Positions 15,990 to 27,642 of a stretch of 64,000 bases of DNA are shown here, piece after piece. Position 1 is the first letter of the stretch; the number at the start of each line of letters is the position of its first letter. The stretch lies in assembly GCA_905236635.1 (NCBI GenBank), contig CAJOCJ010000001.1, positions 1 to 64,000 on the forward strand. Reading direction: 5' to 3'. Both the position numbers and the translations under genes were made by a program. Source of the stretch: an uncultured Bacteroidales bacterium. Its GTDB lineage: Bacteria > Bacteroidota > Bacteroidia > Bacteroidales > F082. Under the pieces are notes generated by a model. It was not told the origin of the DNA. It saw nothing but the letters and a program-made list of their open reading frames with translations, and did no database searches.

Positions 15990-16574
15990 TTAGAGTGAAG
16001 TCGAACTGACGACCATCTTTTTCCATTTCAAGTAGCCAAAAACTGCAATTATCACATAAATGGCATAGAGGCAGGCTTTGAATGGGATGTCTTTGAAGAA
16101 ATACAAGCCGCATGTGACCACATCGACGGCGATCCAGATAAACCACTGCTCGAGATATTTATGCGCTAAAGCCCATATTCCTATGATGCTTAAAGCTGTT
16201 GTGAAGCTGTCGGCAATAGGAACGTTGCTATTTGTGAAGTTGGTGAGTATCAAATAGATGACAAACCATACTAATAAGATTATTCCGAGCCATGGCAGTA
16301 TAAGTTTTTTAGGAAAATGGCGGATTGGAAGCTCTTTTTTCTCGGAAGAGCCGTGTACCCATTTCCAATAGCCGTAAACGGTCATTGCGAGGTAATAAAA
16401 CTCCATGCCGCAGTCGGCGTACAGGCCTTTTTGGTAATAGAGCACGATGCCGAGTGCCTGCATCATGAAGCCGACCAGCCACATCCAAACACTGGCCCGA
16501 TATTCAAAGAGGATATAAGCCAGTCCGAGGACTGTGGTGACGATGTCGAGCCAGTGTTTTGCGATGAATTCCAT
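15990..16574 (-). CDS. pnuT: PnuT, PnuC-family thiamine transporter
   Basis: PnuC-type proteins carry vitamins (nicotinamide riboside, riboflavin, thiamine) across the inner membrane by facilitated diffusion, with trapping by phosphorylation. The 194-residue product has about seven helices and family signatures: YILFEYRASVWMWLVG, YYQKGLYADCGMEFYYL, YGYWKW and the C-terminal EQWFIWIAVDVVTCGLYF. Its ATG overlaps the stop of the TonB receptor gene, and both are downstream of a TPP riboswitch. This context marks it as the thiamine member, PnuT. No thiamine kinase is visible nearby. Confidence 0.9.
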   Translation of the reverse strand: MEFIAKHWLDIVTTVLGLAYILFEYRASVWMWLVGFMMQALGIVLYYQKGLYADCGMEFYYLAMTVYGYWKWVHGSSEKKELPIRHFPKKLILPWLGIILLVWFVIYLILTNFTNSNVPIADSFTTALSIIGIWALAHKYLEQWFIWIAVDVVTCGLYFFKDIPFKACLYAIYVIIAVFGYLKWKKMVVSSTSL

Positions 16575-18973
16575 TAGAATTTAAGAGTTAAGTTAGCCAT
16601 CATGTTAAAGCCAGCCATAGGTATGAAGCCAATCTGATAGTAGCGGTTGTCGTTAGGATGACCGTAGCTTTCGGCGATTGCCGAGTAGACCCATCCGCTG
16701 GCGGCGTAGCGTTTGTTGAAAATATTGTTGAAATTTATCTTAAAGATAGCTTCTTTCACGAACTTTTTAGGCTTGTATGTGTAGCTGGCGCTCACATTGG
16801 AGGTGGAATAACCCGGCAAAGAGCGGTCGATGTTTTCGGTGTTGTCGAGATACATTCTCGAGACATAGTTGGTGTTCCATGTCAACGCTATTCCTTTATG
16901 GTGGAAGGTGATGAAACCGTTAAGTATTACTGATGGTGAGAACGCCAAGGTAGAGTTGTCGTAATGTATTGTCTGCGAGCCGTTATCCCAGTCTTCGACT
17001 ACCTCATCGAAATCCTTGATTTTATTTTGGCTGAGGGCGGCATTGGCTTCAATGGTAAGCCAAGATGTCGGATTGATGCCGGCTTGCAGTTCGATACCCA
17101 TACGGTATGATTTCTTGATGTTAGTGGTGAGAGCCTCGCCTATATCGCTTACTTGACCTGTCTGTACGAACTGGTTGTTATAATCCATATAATAAAGGTT
17201 GGCGCCTGCTGACCAGATGTTGGTTCCGTAGTTATAACCCAATTCATAATCAATGAGTTGCTCAGGTTTTGGGAAAGGGTAGGAGCCGTTGTCGGTGAAG
17301 TTGTTTCTTTCAGGCTCACGGTTGCTCATTGCCACTGAGGCGTAGGCGTGGTGAGCGTTGAGGTCGAAAGCTATACCGCCTTTAGGGTTGAAGAAGTTAT
17401 AGTTTTCGTTGACGTCGAGGACCTGGTTGACGAAGTTATCGTTTTCGTCTTTAATGAACTTATCGTTAACACCAATGGTTTTATAGTCGACATGGCGATA
17501 TTGTGCGTCGCCGAACACGTTCCAGTTTTCACCTATTCTGTAGGTAGCTCTGAGGAACACGTTACCGTCGAGTTTTTTTGCATCGGAGTCGTAGTACTGA
17601 TACTTGCCGTTTGCGAGATATTTGTCAGCTATCTCTTCGTCGGCGATATATGTCACATAGCCGAAGTGGTTACCGTCGAAATGTTGCATTGAGAGACCGC
17701 TGATGAGTTCGAGACGTTCGTTTTTATAACGTGTATACCACACGAATCCGTATGTGTTTTGTGAAAGGCCTTTTTTACGCACCACGTCAGATTTCTTCGA
17801 TTTACCGTCGGTTTTGAACTCGTTGATACCGAATTTGTCGGCTAATTTGTTGTTTGGACGGAATTCGTCGTAGAATCCGTAGCCGTAGGTATAATACAAC
17901 GATGCCGCTGTTGCCCAGTTGTCGTTGATTTCCCAAGCTGTGGAGAGGATGTTGTGGTCTTGCCAGAAGTTGTCGGTGGTCTTATCCCAGTAGCTTCCGT
18001 CGTTGAGTTTATAGCGTTCGGTCTTGTAGTTGCCGTTTTCGTCTTTCACGAAAAGTCCGTTCTCGTCGGTGACGAGTCGTTCGTATAGGTTGTTAAACTG
18101 TCCGAGGCCGGCGTTCCACATATCTCCGTAGGTGTGGATGCCTGTTTTTGTTGAATAGGACCATGTGCCGTCGTCGTAGCAGCCGTCCATAAGTGAATAG
18201 TCGTTGTTACCTGCGACTACGCCGTTCCAGGCTTGTCCGGTGTTCTCGAAGTTACCGATGTTTTTATATCTGATGATGAATTTGTTGCTGTTGTACGAGA
18301 TGCCGCCGTAGTAGCTTCCGCTGCGTCCGCTGGTGCCGTGTATGAAGCCGTTGGTATTTGTCTCATGATAAGCTCCGTCGATGACTATGTGGTTCCAGAG
18401 CAGTCCGGTGGAGGCTTTGACACCGAAGTTAAGGGTGTTGAACGAGCCGTATGAGCCTGTTATCTCGGCACTTGGTTTGAACGACGGCATGCCGGTGAGG
18501 AGCACGATAGAGCCTCCGAAGGCGCCGTCGCCGTTTGTTGATGAGCCCACGCCACGGCGTATCTGGACGTCGCTGAGCAGGGCGCCATATCCGTTCATGT
18601 TAGCCCAGAACACGCATTGGTCTTCCGGTGAGTTGAGCGGCACGCCATCGAGGGTGACGTTGATACGTGAGTCACCGGCGCCACGGATACGCATGTAGCT
18701 TGTGCCGGTGCCGACACCATTCTCGCTCCACGAGATGATGCCAGGTGTCTTAGCAAACAGGAAAGGCAGCTCCTTACCTGTGTTGGAGAAGTCGCTGAGC
18801 ACGTTTTTGTCGAGTTCTGTCATGGCGAATGGAGCGTTTTTCTTAACTCTCACACCGCTTACCACCACCTCCTGGAGCATTTCATAGCTTGTGGTGTCGA
18901 TAACGATTTCATTCTGCGCATTCACATTTGCTGCAAAAAAGAAAGCAGCGATACAAAGAAAAATTCTTTTCAT
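16574..18973 (-). CDS. TonB-dependent outer membrane receptor, probably for thiamine
   Basis: This 799-residue receptor has a signal peptide (to about NAQ at residue 20), a plug domain at about 30-150 (EVVVSGVRVKKNAPFAMTEL, then SYMRIRGAGDSRINVTLDGV) and a beta-barrel up to the terminal strand MANLTLKF. TonB receptors use the proton motive force via TonB-ExbBD to import scarce nutrients across the outer membrane. It lies directly under a TPP riboswitch and is coupled to pnuT, so thiamine or a precursor is the likely substrate. No SusD-like partner is present. Length is normal. Substrate is inferred from regulation. Confidence 0.93.
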   Translation of the reverse strand: MKRIFLCIAAFFFAANVNAQNEIVIDTTSYEMLQEVVVSGVRVKKNAPFAMTELDKNVLSDFSNTGKELPFLFAKTPGIISWSENGVGTGTSYMRIRGAGDSRINVTLDGVPLNSPEDQCVFWANMNGYGALLSDVQIRRGVGSSTNGDGAFGGSIVLLTGMPSFKPSAEITGSYGSFNTLNFGVKASTGLLWNHIVIDGAYHETNTNGFIHGTSGRSGSYYGGISYNSNKFIIRYKNIGNFENTGQAWNGVVAGNNDYSLMDGCYDDGTWSYSTKTGIHTYGDMWNAGLGQFNNLYERLVTDENGLFVKDENGNYKTERYKLNDGSYWDKTTDNFWQDHNILSTAWEINDNWATAASLYYTYGYGFYDEFRPNNKLADKFGINEFKTDGKSKKSDVVRKKGLSQNTYGFVWYTRYKNERLELISGLSMQHFDGNHFGYVTYIADEEIADKYLANGKYQYYDSDAKKLDGNVFLRATYRIGENWNVFGDAQYRHVDYKTIGVNDKFIKDENDNFVNQVLDVNENYNFFNPKGGIAFDLNAHHAYASVAMSNREPERNNFTDNGSYPFPKPEQLIDYELGYNYGTNIWSAGANLYYMDYNNQFVQTGQVSDIGEALTTNIKKSYRMGIELQAGINPTSWLTIEANAALSQNKIKDFDEVVEDWDNGSQTIHYDNSTLAFSPSVILNGFITFHHKGIALTWNTNYVSRMYLDNTENIDRSLPGYSTSNVSASYTYKPKKFVKEAIFKINFNNIFNKRYAASGWVYSAIAESYGHPNDNRYYQIGFIPMAGFNMMANLTLKF

Positions 18974-19002: not shown

Positions 19003-19093
19003 AAGGGGAAAATCGGTAATATCCATCCCTACGCCGGCATTACCCGGATCAGGTTTTTAGGGTATCATCTCAGCCCCCAAAGGAGCACCCCTT
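19003..19093 (-). promoter_or_regulatory. TPP (THI-box) riboswitch
   Basis: Read on the minus strand, the leader has the THI-element core: GGGGGCTGAGATGATACCC, then CCTGATCCGGGTAATGCCGG, then CGTAGGGA. Flanking AGGGG and CCCCTT can pair as the closing stem. Binding of thiamine pyrophosphate normally lowers expression of the downstream genes. Here it controls the TonB receptor and pnuT, about 30 bases before the receptor start. Confidence 0.96.
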
Positions 19094-19105
19094 GAATTTC
19101 GAGTG

Positions 19106-23081: not shown

Positions 23082-23195
23082 CGTCATTTCGACTGAAGTG
23101 AAATAAAATGGAACGGAATTGAGAAATCCTCCAACAACGAAAGCTTATGGAATTGGAAGATTTCTCGACTACACTTCGTTTCGCTCGAAATGACA
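23082..23195. repeat. REP-like long inverted repeat with CGTCATTTCGA arms, copy A
   Basis: The left arm reads CGTCATTTCGACTGAAGTG and the right arm ends CTTCGTTTCGCTCGAAATGAC, its near complement, giving a roughly 114-bp imperfect hairpin with GAGAAATC and GATTTCTC inside. Single arms of the same element occur at 47747-47787 and 52111-52157. It lies between divergent promoters, so it is not a terminator for either neighbour. Confidence 0.75.
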
Positions 23196-23231
23196 AGAAA
23201 AAAATACTATTAATCATGTCAGAAAAATTTG

Positions 23232-23239
23232 TATTTTTG
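23232..23239 (+). promoter_or_regulatory. -7 promoter element for the cobalamin-riboswitch operon
   Basis: TATTTTTG matches TAnnTTTG and lies immediately before the riboswitch. Confidence 0.55.
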
Positions 23240-23242
23240 CAG

Positions 23243-23385
23243 TCGCTTTGGAAAAGGGAACGCTGTGTGAATCGGCGACAGTACCCGCTGCTGTGAGTCC
23301 CGCGAAAAGGCCTGTCAACAATGCCACTGTCGAAAGATGGGAAGGCGGCAGGCTGGGATGAGTCAGAAGACCTTGCCAGGCATTA
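23243..23385 (+). promoter_or_regulatory. Cobalamin (B12) riboswitch
   Basis: The leader carries the conserved cobalamin aptamer pieces in order: GGGAACGC, GTGTGAATC, CGACAGTACCCGCTGCTGTG, GAGTCCCGCGAAAAGGCC, GCCACTG, GGGAAGG and the B12 box GATGAGTCAGAAGACCTTGCC (split here only for reading). The box ends about 50 bases before the ATG at 23426. Cobalamin binding normally represses the genes downstream, here a DUF4465 surface protein and a CoA-transferase. Confidence 0.95.
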
Positions 23386-23425
23386 TAGTAAAATTTATTT
23401 CGGGATTAAAATTAAATTAAACAAA

Positions 23426-26317
23426 ATGAAAAAGTGTTTCTTTTTAGCACTGTCGCTGCTATTTGCGACAATCGTAAATGCCCAACTGTCAGGCACTTAC
23501 ACCATCAACAGCAATTCTTCTGCAAGCCCCGACTACACCTCGCTCAGCGCGGCGGCATCGGCATTGTCGGCTGGCGTCAACGGTCAGGTGGTTTTTGAAA
23601 TCGCCCCTGGAACGTATGAGGAATACGTCGGCCTTGGCAGTATCAGCGGAACAAGCGAGACCAACCGTGTGATCTTCAGAGGCATGGGCGCCGACAACCA
23701 ACAGGTTGTGATCACAAGCAACGCCGGCGATACCGACAACAGCACCATCAAACTCGACAGGACAGATTATGTCACTTTTGAAAATATGACGGTGACTACC
23801 ACATCTACAAACAAGGCCGTGCTGGTGAAGATGATGAACGGCAACACTTGCGACCGTTTCGAAAACGTACGATTCATAGGAGCTGTCTCCAACACCAGTC
23901 TCGACAACAACAAATGTCTCGTTTATCGCATCAGCGGCGAATGGATCGACTATAACAACGAGTTTGTGGGCTGCCATTTCGAAAACGGTTACATTGGCTT
24001 GTATTATCAAGGGCATAATATCTACACGCTCAACGACGGCGTTTTGGTGGAAAACTGCACCTTTTTAAATCAGTCGTTCAAGAGTATTTATATCAGTTTT
24101 ACTGACCATGCCATAGTGCGCGGCAACACCATCACCAACCACACCCACGATGTTTTGACCAACTATCACGCCATGGATTTGTTGAGAATCCGTTATAACA
24201 GCATCATTGAAAACAACGTGATAAACGTGACACGTAATTATAATTATGCCACGGTGTTTGAGATACGTCCTGCTATGGGAACCGATACAGAACCTATAAT
24301 CATCCGAAATAACATCATCAATTTTGTTTGTAATGTAAACACCAGTTGGTGCTGCGAGTTGGACGACGTCAACAGCAGCTATGTCTATTTTGTGCACAAC
24401 ACCATAAAATGCTCCGGCAACAGCAACTGTGGCATTATGATTGTCGATAAAGACTGGTCTAATTTGTATATTTACAATAACTTGTTTGTAAATGAAGCCA
24501 CAGGATACGTGTTGCGTTTCAATAAAAATTCTGCAGACCGGTTCAGCGACTACAATAGGGCTCAGTTCTCGGGCAGCTGTTTCGGAAGGCTAGCCACCAC
24601 CGATTGCCCTACTATAGCCGACTGGAACTCTGCCACAGGATTAGATGCCAATTCTTCTCTCTGTACTCCTAACTTTGTGGGTAACAACGACTTACATATC
24701 ACAAATACGAGCGGTTTGACGGTTGAAAATCCGCTTTCATACGTCACAACCGACATCGACGGCCAGGCTCGTTCTACTTCAGAACCTTGCGCTGGAGCTG
24801 ATGAATATGCTTTGGGCACAAACCTGCCTCCAGTCGTGGCAAACCCTGTTTCAAACATCACTTTTGAGACATATCCGGCAAACCAGACAGTCGATTTGAC
24901 CAACACCTTCAACGACCCTGACGACCCGAACGAAAATATAGCGATTACAATAGCTTCGAACAGCAATCCGACACTTGTTTCGGCAACTCTTAACAACAGA
25001 GCTTTGACGGTGACACGTCTCGTGGCGACCGGCGGAGCGGCTACAATAACACTGAATGCAGAAAGCGCGGGACAGTCGGTGCAGACTTCATTTTCAGTTG
25101 AATGTTTGTCCGATGATATGCCACCTGTAGTGGCCAACCAGATTGAGCCTATAAGCTTCACGGATTATCCGCAGAGCTTCACTTTCGACATCACCAATGC
25201 GTTTGACGACCCTGACAACAATAACGATTTCATTGAAATTGAAGTTTATAGTTGTCCTTCGGAAATAACGGCAATAATTGACGATGACGAAGAAAACCTT
25301 ACGGTGTCAAGAAATACCGCTAATGCTTTTACAAACAAGACTTTAGTGCTTCGTGCGACAAGTAACGGCAAGCATGTCGACATGGATATCAGCGTGTCGG
25401 GTGTGGAAGTTGTGGTAACCGTTGGCACTGCCACTTTCGATGACGTGACGCTTGGTTCAAACGGCTATTGGCAGGGCGTGGAAGGCGACAATGAGATGTT
25501 CAGTGGCGGTTGGCTGTTCTACAATTATTACATGTCAGATTACAATTTCTGGGGCGGTTTCACGGCATCCAACCATTCTGATTTGTCGCTGTCCGGACTA
25601 GACGCGCAATACACAGCGGCATCGGGAAGCGGTTACGATGGTTCGTCTCAATACGGTGTGGCATACACCATGGGTATCCCCTGCGATGTCTATGCCGTTG
25701 ACGGCCAAGCACATACAGTTACAGGTTGCTATGTGACAAACAACGTTTGGGCCTATCAAAACATTCACGACGGCGATGCCACGGCGACAGCGTTCGGTGG
25801 TCCTACAGGCAATGACCCAGACTGGTTCAAACTCACTGCTACGGGCAAAGACGCTAATGGCAATACCATTGGAACAGCCGAGTTTTACCTCGCCGACTAT
25901 CGTTTTGACAACAATGACGAGGATTATGTTTTGAATACATGGGAATGGTTCGATTTGAGCACGCTTGGCGCAGTTAATAAAATCACATTCAGCCTTTCTT
26001 CGTCGAAAAACGATTATGGTGGCATGATTACGCCGGCATATTTCTGTATAGATGATTTCAATGGTGTTACACCTGACGGAATTGAGGAAAATAATTTGGA
26101 TATCGCGGTTTACCCGAATCCTGCACATGATTTCATATCCGTAGAGACGATGTGCACATCGTCTCTGCAATGCGTTGAAATATTTGACATTACAGGCAAA
26201 AAAATCCTGACCTCATCTGAATCAAAAATTGATGTCAGCGCATTGCCGGCAGGCGTTTATTTCATTTTGGTTTGCACAGAAAATCAGAGATTTGTTGAAA
26301 AAATCATCAAACAATAA
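23426..26317 (+). CDS. T9SS-exported beta-helix/DUF4465 protein under cobalamin control
   Basis: The 963-residue protein starts at the ATG at 23426 (MKKCFFLALSLLFATIVNAQ); an in-frame extension upstream would run into the riboswitch. Residues about 25-430 look like a parallel beta-helix (repeated NNxI, VRGNTITNH, IIRNNIINF). Two tandem Ig/cadherin-like modules follow (DLTNTFNDPDDPNENI; DITNAFDDPDNNNDFI) to about 665. A DUF4465 domain covers about 670-880 (FDDVTLGSNGYWQGVEG; FYLADYRFDNND). The T9SS sorting domain (VYPNPAHDFISVE to EKIIKQ) ends it. A 28-bp palindromic repeat is inserted in frame in that sorting domain at 26141. From memory, DUF4465 proteins often sit under B12 riboswitches and some Bacteroides surface proteins in such loci bind cobalamin; a capture role here is inferred. 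Confidence 0.88.
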   Translation: MKKCFFLALSLLFATIVNAQLSGTYTINSNSSASPDYTSLSAAASALSAGVNGQVVFEIAPGTYEEYVGLGSISGTSETNRVIFRGMGADNQQVVITSNAGDTDNSTIKLDRTDYVTFENMTVTTTSTNKAVLVKMMNGNTCDRFENVRFIGAVSNTSLDNNKCLVYRISGEWIDYNNEFVGCHFENGYIGLYYQGHNIYTLNDGVLVENCTFLNQSFKSIYISFTDHAIVRGNTITNHTHDVLTNYHAMDLLRIRYNSIIENNVINVTRNYNYATVFEIRPAMGTDTEPIIIRNNIINFVCNVNTSWCCELDDVNSSYVYFVHNTIKCSGNSNCGIMIVDKDWSNLYIYNNLFVNEATGYVLRFNKNSADRFSDYNRAQFSGSCFGRLATTDCPTIADWNSATGLDANSSLCTPNFVGNNDLHITNTSGLTVENPLSYVTTDIDGQARSTSEPCAGADEYALGTNLPPVVANPVSNITFETYPANQTVDLTNTFNDPDDPNENIAITIASNSNPTLVSATLNNRALTVTRLVATGGAATITLNAESAGQSVQTSFSVECLSDDMPPVVANQIEPISFTDYPQSFTFDITNAFDDPDNNNDFIEIEVYSCPSEITAIIDDDEENLTVSRNTANAFTNKTLVLRATSNGKHVDMDISVSGVEVVVTVGTATFDDVTLGSNGYWQGVEGDNEMFSGGWLFYNYYMSDYNFWGGFTASNHSDLSLSGLDAQYTAASGSGYDGSSQYGVAYTMGIPCDVYAVDGQAHTVTGCYVTNNVWAYQNIHDGDATATAFGGPTGNDPDWFKLTATGKDANGNTIGTAEFYLADYRFDNNDEDYVLNTWEWFDLSTLGAVNKITFSLSSSKNDYGGMITPAYFCIDDFNGVTPDGIEENNLDIAVYPNPAHDFISVETMCTSSLQCVEIFDITGKKILTSSESKIDVSALPAGVYFILVCTENQRFVEKIIKQ
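26141..26168. repeat. GTAGAGACG palindromic repeat, copy 2, inside a coding sequence
   Basis: A near-perfect 28-bp palindrome (GTAGAGACG, ATGTGCACAT, CGTCTCTGC) lies in frame in the sorting domain of the 23426 gene and encodes roughly residues 906-914 (ETMCTSSLQ). The same core occurs outside genes at 56677. Confidence 0.85.
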
Positions 26318-26322
26318 TCGCC

Positions 26323-27642
26323 ATGAAGAAGCAATATCAAGCGGTTTCTGCCGAGGAAGCCGTGAAAGTCATAAAATCAGGCGATCATGTGCACATCAGC
26401 TCGGTGTCAAGTGTGCCACAATGTCTGGTGAAAGCCTTGTGTGACCGCGGTCGTGCAGGCGAGTTGAAAAACGTGTATATCCATCACCTTCATACCGAAG
26501 GGGCTGCGCCTTATGTCAACCCAGAGTTTGAGGGTATCTTCCAGCATAACGCATTCTTCGTCGGCGCTAACGTCCGTGAGAGCGTGCAGAAAGGCTTGGC
26601 AGATTATATCCCGGTATTTTTAGGTGAGACTTCAAAGCTTTACCGCGAAAAATATATCAAATGCAACGTGGCGATGATACAGGTGTGTCCGCCCGACAAG
26701 TTCGGATACGTGTCGTTGGGCTCGTCGGTCGATGCGACCCTTGCCGCCATGGAGAGCTCCGAGTTCGTCATCGCTGTTGTCAACAAACATGTGCCGAGGA
26801 CCTTTGGCGATGCGCTTGTTCACATCAGCAGAATCAATGTCTTTGTTGAAGACGACACCCCGTTGCTCACCGTCGATATGCCTGAGCCTAACGAGGTGGA
26901 GAAGACAATAGGGCGTTATTGTGCCGAGCTAATCGAAGACGGTGCCTGCCTTCAGATGGGAATCGGAAGCATTCCAAATGCCATTTTGTCGTGCCTACAC
27001 AACCATAAAAACATAGGTATCCACACAGAGATGTTCTCCGACGGCATTCTTCCCTTGATAAAGAAAGGTGTACTCAACGGAAACAATAAGAAACTCGATA
27101 GAGGCAAGATTGTCTCGACTTTCGTGATGGGTTCGCAGAAGATCTACAATTTTATCGATGAGAACCCCATGGTGCTGATGAAAGACGTGGAGTACACCAA
27201 CGATCCGTTCATCATTGCGCAGCAGCCCAAGATGACGTCTATCAACTCGGCCATTCAGGTCGATTTGTCGGGACAGGTGTGTGCCGACTCGTTGGGAGAG
27301 CGCATCTATTCGGGCGTGGGCGGTCAGATAGACTTCGTCTATGGAGCCTCGCGTTCGAAAGGAGGCAAGGCCATCATCGCCATGCCTTCGACCACACGAA
27401 AAGGCATCAACAAGATTGTGCCTGCTCTGGATCTTGGCTCAGGCGCTGTCACCACACGTAACCATATCCATTGGTTTATCACGGAATATGGCGCGGTGAA
27501 CCTCTATGGTCGTTCGTTGCAGGAAAGGGCAAAGCTCATCATCTCGGTGGCTCATCCGAAGTATCAGGAAGAGCTCGAAGAGGCGGCGTTCAAGCGTTTC
27601 GGACCGCATTATCATTATATTTGCAGAAATAATTTGATTTAA
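26323..27642 (+). CDS. Acetyl-CoA hydrolase/CoA-transferase family enzyme (4-hydroxybutyrate/butyrate type)
   Basis: The 439-residue cytoplasmic enzyme belongs to the class I CoA-transferase family that includes 4-hydroxybutyrate, butyryl and propionyl/succinyl CoA-transferases. It shows the N-terminal GDHVHISSVSSVPQ, the CoA-site VCPPDKFGYVSLGSSVD, GIGSIPNAIL, the catalytic-Glu motif IHTEMFSDG (Glu236), and GGQIDFVYGASRSKGGKAI. Length fits the 430-450 residue butyryl/4-hydroxybutyrate branch, but the acyl substrate cannot be read from sequence alone. It begins 5 bases after the DUF4465 gene, so it should share its cobalamin-riboswitch control. That would link CoA transfer to B12 shortage, for example when B12-dependent methylmalonyl-CoA mutase is limiting. 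Confidence 0.92.
   Translation: MKKQYQAVSAEEAVKVIKSGDHVHISSVSSVPQCLVKALCDRGRAGELKNVYIHHLHTEGAAPYVNPEFEGIFQHNAFFVGANVRESVQKGLADYIPVFLGETSKLYREKYIKCNVAMIQVCPPDKFGYVSLGSSVDATLAAMESSEFVIAVVNKHVPRTFGDALVHISRINVFVEDDTPLLTVDMPEPNEVEKTIGRYCAELIEDGACLQMGIGSIPNAILSCLHNHKNIGIHTEMFSDGILPLIKKGVLNGNNKKLDRGKIVSTFVMGSQKIYNFIDENPMVLMKDVEYTNDPFIIAQQPKMTSINSAIQVDLSGQVCADSLGERIYSGVGGQIDFVYGASRSKGGKAIIAMPSTTRKGINKIVPALDLGSGAVTTRNHIHWFITEYGAVNLYGRSLQERAKLIISVAHPKYQEELEEAAFKRFGPHYHYICRNNLI

Follow-up and report, generated by a model that had tools for sequence, protein, structure and literature searches.

A class I CoA-transferase gene behind cobalamin riboswitches in one clade of Bacteroidales, here next to a DUF4465 surface protein

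A gene for a class I CoA-transferase (CoAT) lies behind a cobalamin riboswitch in an uncultured Bacteroidales bacterium, and this placement recurs throughout one clade of its relatives. In the window, the 64,000-nucleotide stretch of DNA analyzed here, the riboswitch is followed by a gene for a surface protein with a DUF4465 domain and then by the CoAT gene. We lean modestly towards reading the whole as a B12-repressed operon that pairs a cobamide-scavenging surface protein with a CoAT acting as a metabolic bypass.

A search with the full RF00174 model (cmscan) placed the cobalamin riboswitch aptamer at 23203–23395 on the forward strand, with 75.7 bits against a gathering score of 31.5 (E = 7.2e-17). 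The B12 box is present, and the same aptamer was recovered in a whole-genome search for RF00174. It had been recognized in an earlier sequence-only reading, whose start at 23243 is 40 bases inside the match. The first gene (23426–26317, +; ATG at 23426, stop ending at 26317) codes for a 963-aa protein, predicted to be exported, with a signal-like N-terminus (by eye), a strand-rich part, two Ig-like domains, the DUF4465 domain, and a T9SS tail, in that order. The CoAT gene (26323–27642, +) begins with an ATG five bases past the stop of the first gene, and its product contains both AcetylCoA_hydro and AcetylCoA_hyd_C Pfam domains, in agreement with the class I assignment made from the sequence. 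A MarC-family membrane protein (PF01914; 27685–28269, +) is encoded 42 bases after the CoAT and is the probable third gene of the operon.

Two other features of the window were recorded. A TPP riboswitch (79.1 bits; 19009–19102, −) precedes genes at 15990–18973 (−), first for a TonB-dependent receptor and next for a protein of the NMN-transporter family (PF04973); this is probably an operon for thiamin uptake. Directly 5′ of the cobalamin riboswitch, a stretch of about 100 bases (23086–23195) resembles a small mobile or REP-like element and has inverted ends (ATTTCGACTGAAGTGAAA ... TTTCGCTCGAAATGACA); with up to two mismatches allowed, the window contains no second copy of its right end.

The DUF4465 domain (25538–26059, +) was identified by sequence and by structure. 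PF14717 matches residues 705–878 with 177.3 bits, far above the cut-off of 25 (E = 4.7e-52). Foldseek, given an AF2 model of the domain built with 35 aligned sequences (pLDDT 78.4, pTM 0.82), found nine structures at E ≤ 0.001; each of them is a DUF4465 structure, and 9hmu ranks first. TM-scores are 0.76 to 9hmu and 0.72 to 9qpm, and the model has the augmented jelly-roll fold of BtuJ1 and D5EK51. The HI-loop tyrosine of BtuJ1, Y245, corresponds to Y872 here; the TPAY motif is present and the tyrosine is invariant in the 35 aligned domains. At the DE-helix site, pairwise alignment places BtuJ1 Y146 opposite W775, with Y777 two residues away, and both residues are invariant in the same 35 domains. 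Very tight cobalamin binding has been measured for the DUF4465 proteins BtuJ1 and BtuJ2 (PMC12751083), and B12 binding is reported for six other, diverse DUF4465 proteins (PMC13398666). Judged from sequence and model, the domain in the window is very likely to bind cobamide as well. Corrinoid capture by this protein, as first suggested from the letters, is thus well supported by family membership, by fold matches restricted to DUF4465, and by Y872.

The remaining parts of the 963-aa protein were matched to different degrees. Por_Secre_tail was found at residues 895–961 (E = 8.4e-14) and TIGR04183 agrees, which delimits a type A T9SS sorting domain at 26108–26308 (+; PF18962/TIGR04183). The genome has 71 sorting-tail matches at E ≤ 0.001, and PorV, the sole component of the T9SS machinery that was sought, was found. 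The earlier reading had also described an Ig region and a beta-helix. For the Ig pair, Foldseek returned mostly tandem Ig and cadherin chains (E 2e-7 to 2e-4) at low TM-scores, which is weak structural support. The beta-helix was read from the pattern of short strands in a predicted structure with pLDDT 75.5, and no beta-helix chain is among the 50 Foldseek matches listed.

We take IPR026444 to be the T9SS sorting domain. It is present at the C-terminus of 229 of 824 DUF4465 family members (PMC12751083), so T9SS export is not unusual for this family. The window protein shares its family (DUF4465/IPR027828), fold, and TPAY-type loop tyrosine with BtuJ1 and BtuJ2 of Bacteroides thetaiotaomicron and D5EK51 of Coraliomargarita, and BtuJ is likewise encoded in cobalamin-riboswitch operons (PMC12751083). 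BtuJ is a small lipoprotein whose partners are other btu genes, whereas in the window the DUF4465 domain occupies a late position in a protein of 963 aa that carries a T9SS tail, and its partner is the CoAT. Because DUF4465 is the published BtuJ family and includes C-terminally sorted forms, the scavenging half of the locus is known biology, as is the cobalamin riboswitch itself.

Pfam scans of 37 window proteins (7 at E 0.1, 30 at E 1e-10) identified no ABC-type B12 transporter. The earlier statement that BtuB and BtuFCD are absent therefore holds for these proteins, but for BtuB it does not extend to the genome (2.05 Mb), which has five cobalamin riboswitches including the one in the window. 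A second riboswitch precedes a pair elsewhere in the genome that consists of a TonB receptor and a DUF5074 protein (BtuG-type propeller). The remaining three lead a 576-aa protein for which Pfam gives no hit at E 0.001, two proteins with T9SS tails, and an fn3 protein of 1577 aa. These T9SS-tail, 576-aa, and 1577-aa proteins, with riboswitch-led genes at L007 4550–6968, L006 5289–7348, and L008 3434–8494, are candidates for unnamed cobamide-handling surface proteins.

Relatives of the CoAT were searched for in public genomes, and the best 80 of 142 were examined. These comprise 68 clade loci at 87.7%–95.2% identity (66 assemblies, two with two loci each) and 12 distant loci at 70.3%–74.4%. The aptamer is located right before the CoAT, here called direct order, in 44 of the 68 clade loci; 43 were called by a pattern search, with the aptamer core 48–279 nt before the CoAT start, and one (L049) by Rfam at 57 bits, beyond the pattern search. 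Another 15 have the order of the window, aptamer, DUF4465 gene, and CoAT, including L022 with a shortened middle gene (319 aa) and L016 and L017, where the CoAT start overlaps the stop of the DUF4465 gene. In three (L040, L036, and L047) a giant fn3 surface protein stands between aptamer and CoAT, and the aptamers of L036 and L047 are visible only in extended upstream DNA (L126/L127). The remaining six (L026, L033, L037, L050, L055, and L058) stop at or near contig ends; 412 bases of the L037 contig extend beyond the stretch read, and by analogy with L036 its aptamer could lie there. Rfam confirmed all 21 pattern-called aptamers that were checked (16 direct, four of window type, and L040). It also found further aptamers (L049, + strand, 5611 and 8496; L033 and L040, − strand), so the pattern counts are lower bounds.

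No cobalamin aptamer was detected at the 12 distant loci within about 6 kb of upstream DNA (1.3–4.1 kb for L083, L085, and L091). None was detected at 17 order-wide homologues (49%–70% identity) within at most about 3 kb upstream, while all three clade controls run alongside were positive; L134 has 487 bases upstream, L147 2.3 kb beyond the gene, and an aptamer 3.2–6 kb away, a spacing that the order of the window has, would escape this search. Within the upstream stretches read, no riboswitch-CoAT link was therefore found outside the clade. In a CoAT tree of 79 rows, from which L062 and L086 were omitted (in-frame stops), the clade has support of 97/96 and its deepest branches show the direct order. 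Four arrangement labels need nine changes on this tree, where many forks are weak; L033 (upstream unknown) was labeled direct, L026 as DUF4465, and L037, L050, L055, and L058 as fn3. The arrangement counts and the tree together indicate that the link is old in this one clade and was kept through rearrangement.

A MarC gene follows on the same strand within 700 nt of the CoAT at 60 of the 68 clade loci and at three of the 12 distant loci. The latter pairs have no riboswitch and would suit a CoAT that is a passenger behind B12-controlled genes, with no functional link to B12. We regard this as very improbable given the 44 relatives with an aptamer directly before the gene, and we are nearly sure that the CoAT truly belongs to the B12 regulon. 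The neighbor survey gives that membership, proposed from a single locus, stronger support than the sequence-only reading could have known.

Other genes near the CoAT were observed in this survey. Deeper clade members encode a 93-aa protein without a Pfam match between CoAT and MarC (L072 7334–7612 and similar). One cluster of giant surface proteins recurs behind or beside the riboswitch CoAT at L036, L040, and L047, and is also present at, among others, L027, L031, L039, L041, L044, and L054. Their fn3 domains were checked with Pfam in L027 and L040 only, and the cluster is a possible B12-linked family.

The leaders were then compared for promoter and expression platform. A TAnnTTTG motif, which we take to be the Bacteroidota-type −7 promoter element, matches at 23232–23239 (+). 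Because this position is within the 5′ portion of the RF00174 match, the transcript may lack the 5′ arm that Rfam draws for P1. The motif occurs 24–44 nt before the GGGAA core in all 60 leaders compared (43 direct and 17 others, including the window) and in 2.6% of random 60-nt stretches from the same loci, a background that is not matched to intergenic A+T content. A P13-like hairpin with a 4-bp stem (located by script) and a CGGGA loop is found at 23394–23410 (+), 15 nt before the start codon; at −0.7 kcal/mol for the piece (RNAfold) it is a weak, candidate expression platform. The fold of the window leader, computed without the kissing loop, gave no signal relative to shuffled sequences (z = 0.15). 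Of 16 aligned leaders of the window type, 14 retain the hairpin sequence and two, L020 and L022, have both arms changed; the 43 direct leaders have a CGGGA-loop hairpin of 5–7 bp behind the aptamer with varying stem letters (L030 included).

Terminator-like elements were called in 13 of the 43 direct leaders automatically and in 15 by eye (adding L057 and L060). In 11, a strong hairpin, with GCUGC and a U-run at its end, uses 8–10 of the 14 bases of the P13-like hairpin. Four direct leaders (L034, L045, L057, and L060) have a different terminator-like hairpin just before the CoAT, and one was also seen by eye at that position in L033, L036, and L037 (L040 to L063 fall outside this by-eye check). 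Read-through to the CoAT is for that reason uncertain at these seven loci, above all in the fn3 arrangement.

Since terminator and P13-like hairpin share bases in the 11 leaders, activation by B12 is possible there, and the folded leader of L064 keeps the P13-like hairpin while its terminator does not form (a fold without pseudoknot or kinetics). This would suit a CoAT that simply acts as the propionyl-CoA:succinate (or acetate) CoA-transferase in B12-dependent propionate formation, with at least some of the riboswitches turned on with B12 by P13 blocking the terminator. We consider that alternative unlikely. In the window and in 15 relatives, the CoAT and a scavenger are behind one leader, and scavengers are expected to be off with B12. 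Cobalamin riboswitches of Bacteroides were repressed by B12 in reporter and transcript data of two papers (PMC12751083, PMC6143338), which favors repression. By this analogy, the riboswitch in the window is likely to be off when B12 is present.

The identity of the CoAT was examined with homologs and gene content. It belongs to the 4-hydroxybutyrate/butyryl-CoA transferase group, and E236, a candidate catalytic glutamate, aligns with E238 of 3gk7, presumably the catalytic residue of that enzyme. The five best solved relatives (2oas, 9vag, 3eh7, 3gk7, and 3d3u), homologous to the CoAT over nearly its whole length, are all named 4-hydroxybutyrate CoA-transferase; the window CoAT differs from them in having a cobalamin riboswitch and no PF03241 protein in its genome. 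These names would point to a true 4-hydroxybutyrate CoA-transferase that feeds succinate into butyrate formation while the mutase stands idle. Gene content was compared in 40 clade genomes (those of 39 of the 68 clade loci plus the genome of the window) and seven genomes from outside the clade. PF03241 (4-hydroxybutyryl-CoA dehydratase-like) matches occur in eight of these 47 genomes, all eight within the clade, and are lacking in this genome (~91% complete), in 32 of the 40 clade genomes, and in all seven outside. Five of the eight matches are weaker, and the three strongest adjoin a second, separate CoA-transferase. With PF03241 in only eight of 40, the 4-hydroxybutyrate name misfits the pathway content of most clade genomes and such a role is scarcely credible; we set the label aside for this protein, as no PF03241 dehydratase was found in its genome.

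The best NCBIfam match of the CoAT is TIGR03948, butyryl-CoA:acetate CoA-transferase, at 313 bits against a cut-off of 674.8. This genome also has a run of genes for lysine 5,6-aminomutase beta, a CoA-transferase subunit, crotonase, 3-hydroxybutyryl-CoA dehydrogenase, acyl-CoA dehydrogenase, and Etf. Both would agree with a butyrate exit enzyme (butyryl-CoA:acetate) that would be required whenever the B12-dependent lysine route fails to provide acetoacetate to accept CoA. We find this improbable: the aminomutase beta subunit is present in 30 of 40 clade genomes, and the 10 without it still have the CoAT, which weakens the lysine/butyrate route as a cause of the regulation. Two assembly features were also noted. 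The pair of aminomutase beta and CoA-transferase subunit is present in two copies (L096, G000:C39; L098, G000:C5), one of them on a 3.2-kb contig, which may reflect contamination or strain variation. The gene for the methylmalonyl-CoA mutase large subunit (L097, G000:C25, 1562–3600) is apparently split in two frames near C25:3388, which appears to be an assembly error or a damaged gene.

Methylmalonyl-CoA mutase was matched in 38 of the 40 clade genomes. Exactly one full-length AcetylCoA_hyd_C (PF13336) protein is present in 35 of them and two in the other five; a single match was taken as the riboswitch CoAT irrespective of gene place. PF01144 CoA-transferases are present in 34. The CoAT is the only PF13336 or PF01144 enzyme in five clade genomes (assemblies may be incomplete), and four of these have the mutase, which suits both a bypass and the role in B12-dependent propionate formation described above. 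In an order-wide survey of 119 genomes, 45 had no match, 20 had a CoAT orthologue (≥54% identity), and 26 others had a type of about 500 aa at 29%–34% identity, assigned by length and alignment. None of the 20 also has the ~500-aa type (hypergeometric P = 0.004, kinship ignored). This mutual exclusion is a hint that the CoAT may stand in for that type. Both the lone PF13336 match and the exclusion add weight to an ordinary propionate-route enzyme.

The reading that we prefer for the locus is the following. The operon, with its own promoter, would comprise the cobalamin riboswitch, the T9SS-exported BtuJ-type protein, the CoAT, and probably the MarC-family protein. When cobamide is scarce, the riboswitch would permit expression of these genes. 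The surface protein could then gather cobamides and deliver them to the TonB receptor and BtuG-type pair encoded elsewhere, while the CoAT would keep acyl-CoA and CoA moving (e.g., from acetyl-CoA to succinate or propionate) at times when cofactor is lacking for methylmalonyl-CoA mutase. We give such a bypass role for the CoAT an even chance.

There are partial precedents for this arrangement. MetE is a B12-independent isozyme under cobalamin riboswitch control. A fatty-acid desaturase was proposed as another B12-independent isozyme controlled in this way (PMC2211319). Both resemble the present case in that a sensor stands before a metabolic gene that may replace an idle B12 enzyme; they are isozymes of B12 enzymes, whereas the CoAT is not an isozyme of any B12 enzyme. 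Xylanibacter ruminicola KHP1, one of the rumen Bacteroidales, has several cobalamin riboswitches, and its succinate pathway includes a CoA-transferase step that is coupled to the B12-dependent mutase; B12 decides whether X. ruminicola forms propionate (PMC11575231). None of its four riboswitches is reported to be near propionate pathway genes (PMC11575231), whereas here the CoAT is behind one. A literature search, with most subscription papers out of reach, turned up no recognizable report of a link between a B12 riboswitch and a CoA-transferase.

The new part is thus the CoAT behind cobalamin riboswitches, kept across dozens of assemblies that by title are mostly from the ruminant gut. A broader and rather doubtful proposal is that, in one rumen-type Bacteroidales clade, what is usually the only enzyme of the acetyl-CoA hydrolase/transferase family is directly cobalamin-sensed. 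B12 might then switch acid output at the RNA level through varied platforms (terminator or start-site hairpin), with some leaders possibly activated by B12. The source organism, a gut bacterium, is related to Bacteroidales of the rumen, and in its close relatives the CoAT stays behind such a sensor though the neighbors change. If our reading is true, acid fermentation would be linked to B12 supply directly at the genetic level, and cobamide scavenging and central metabolism would be tied together in one regulon.
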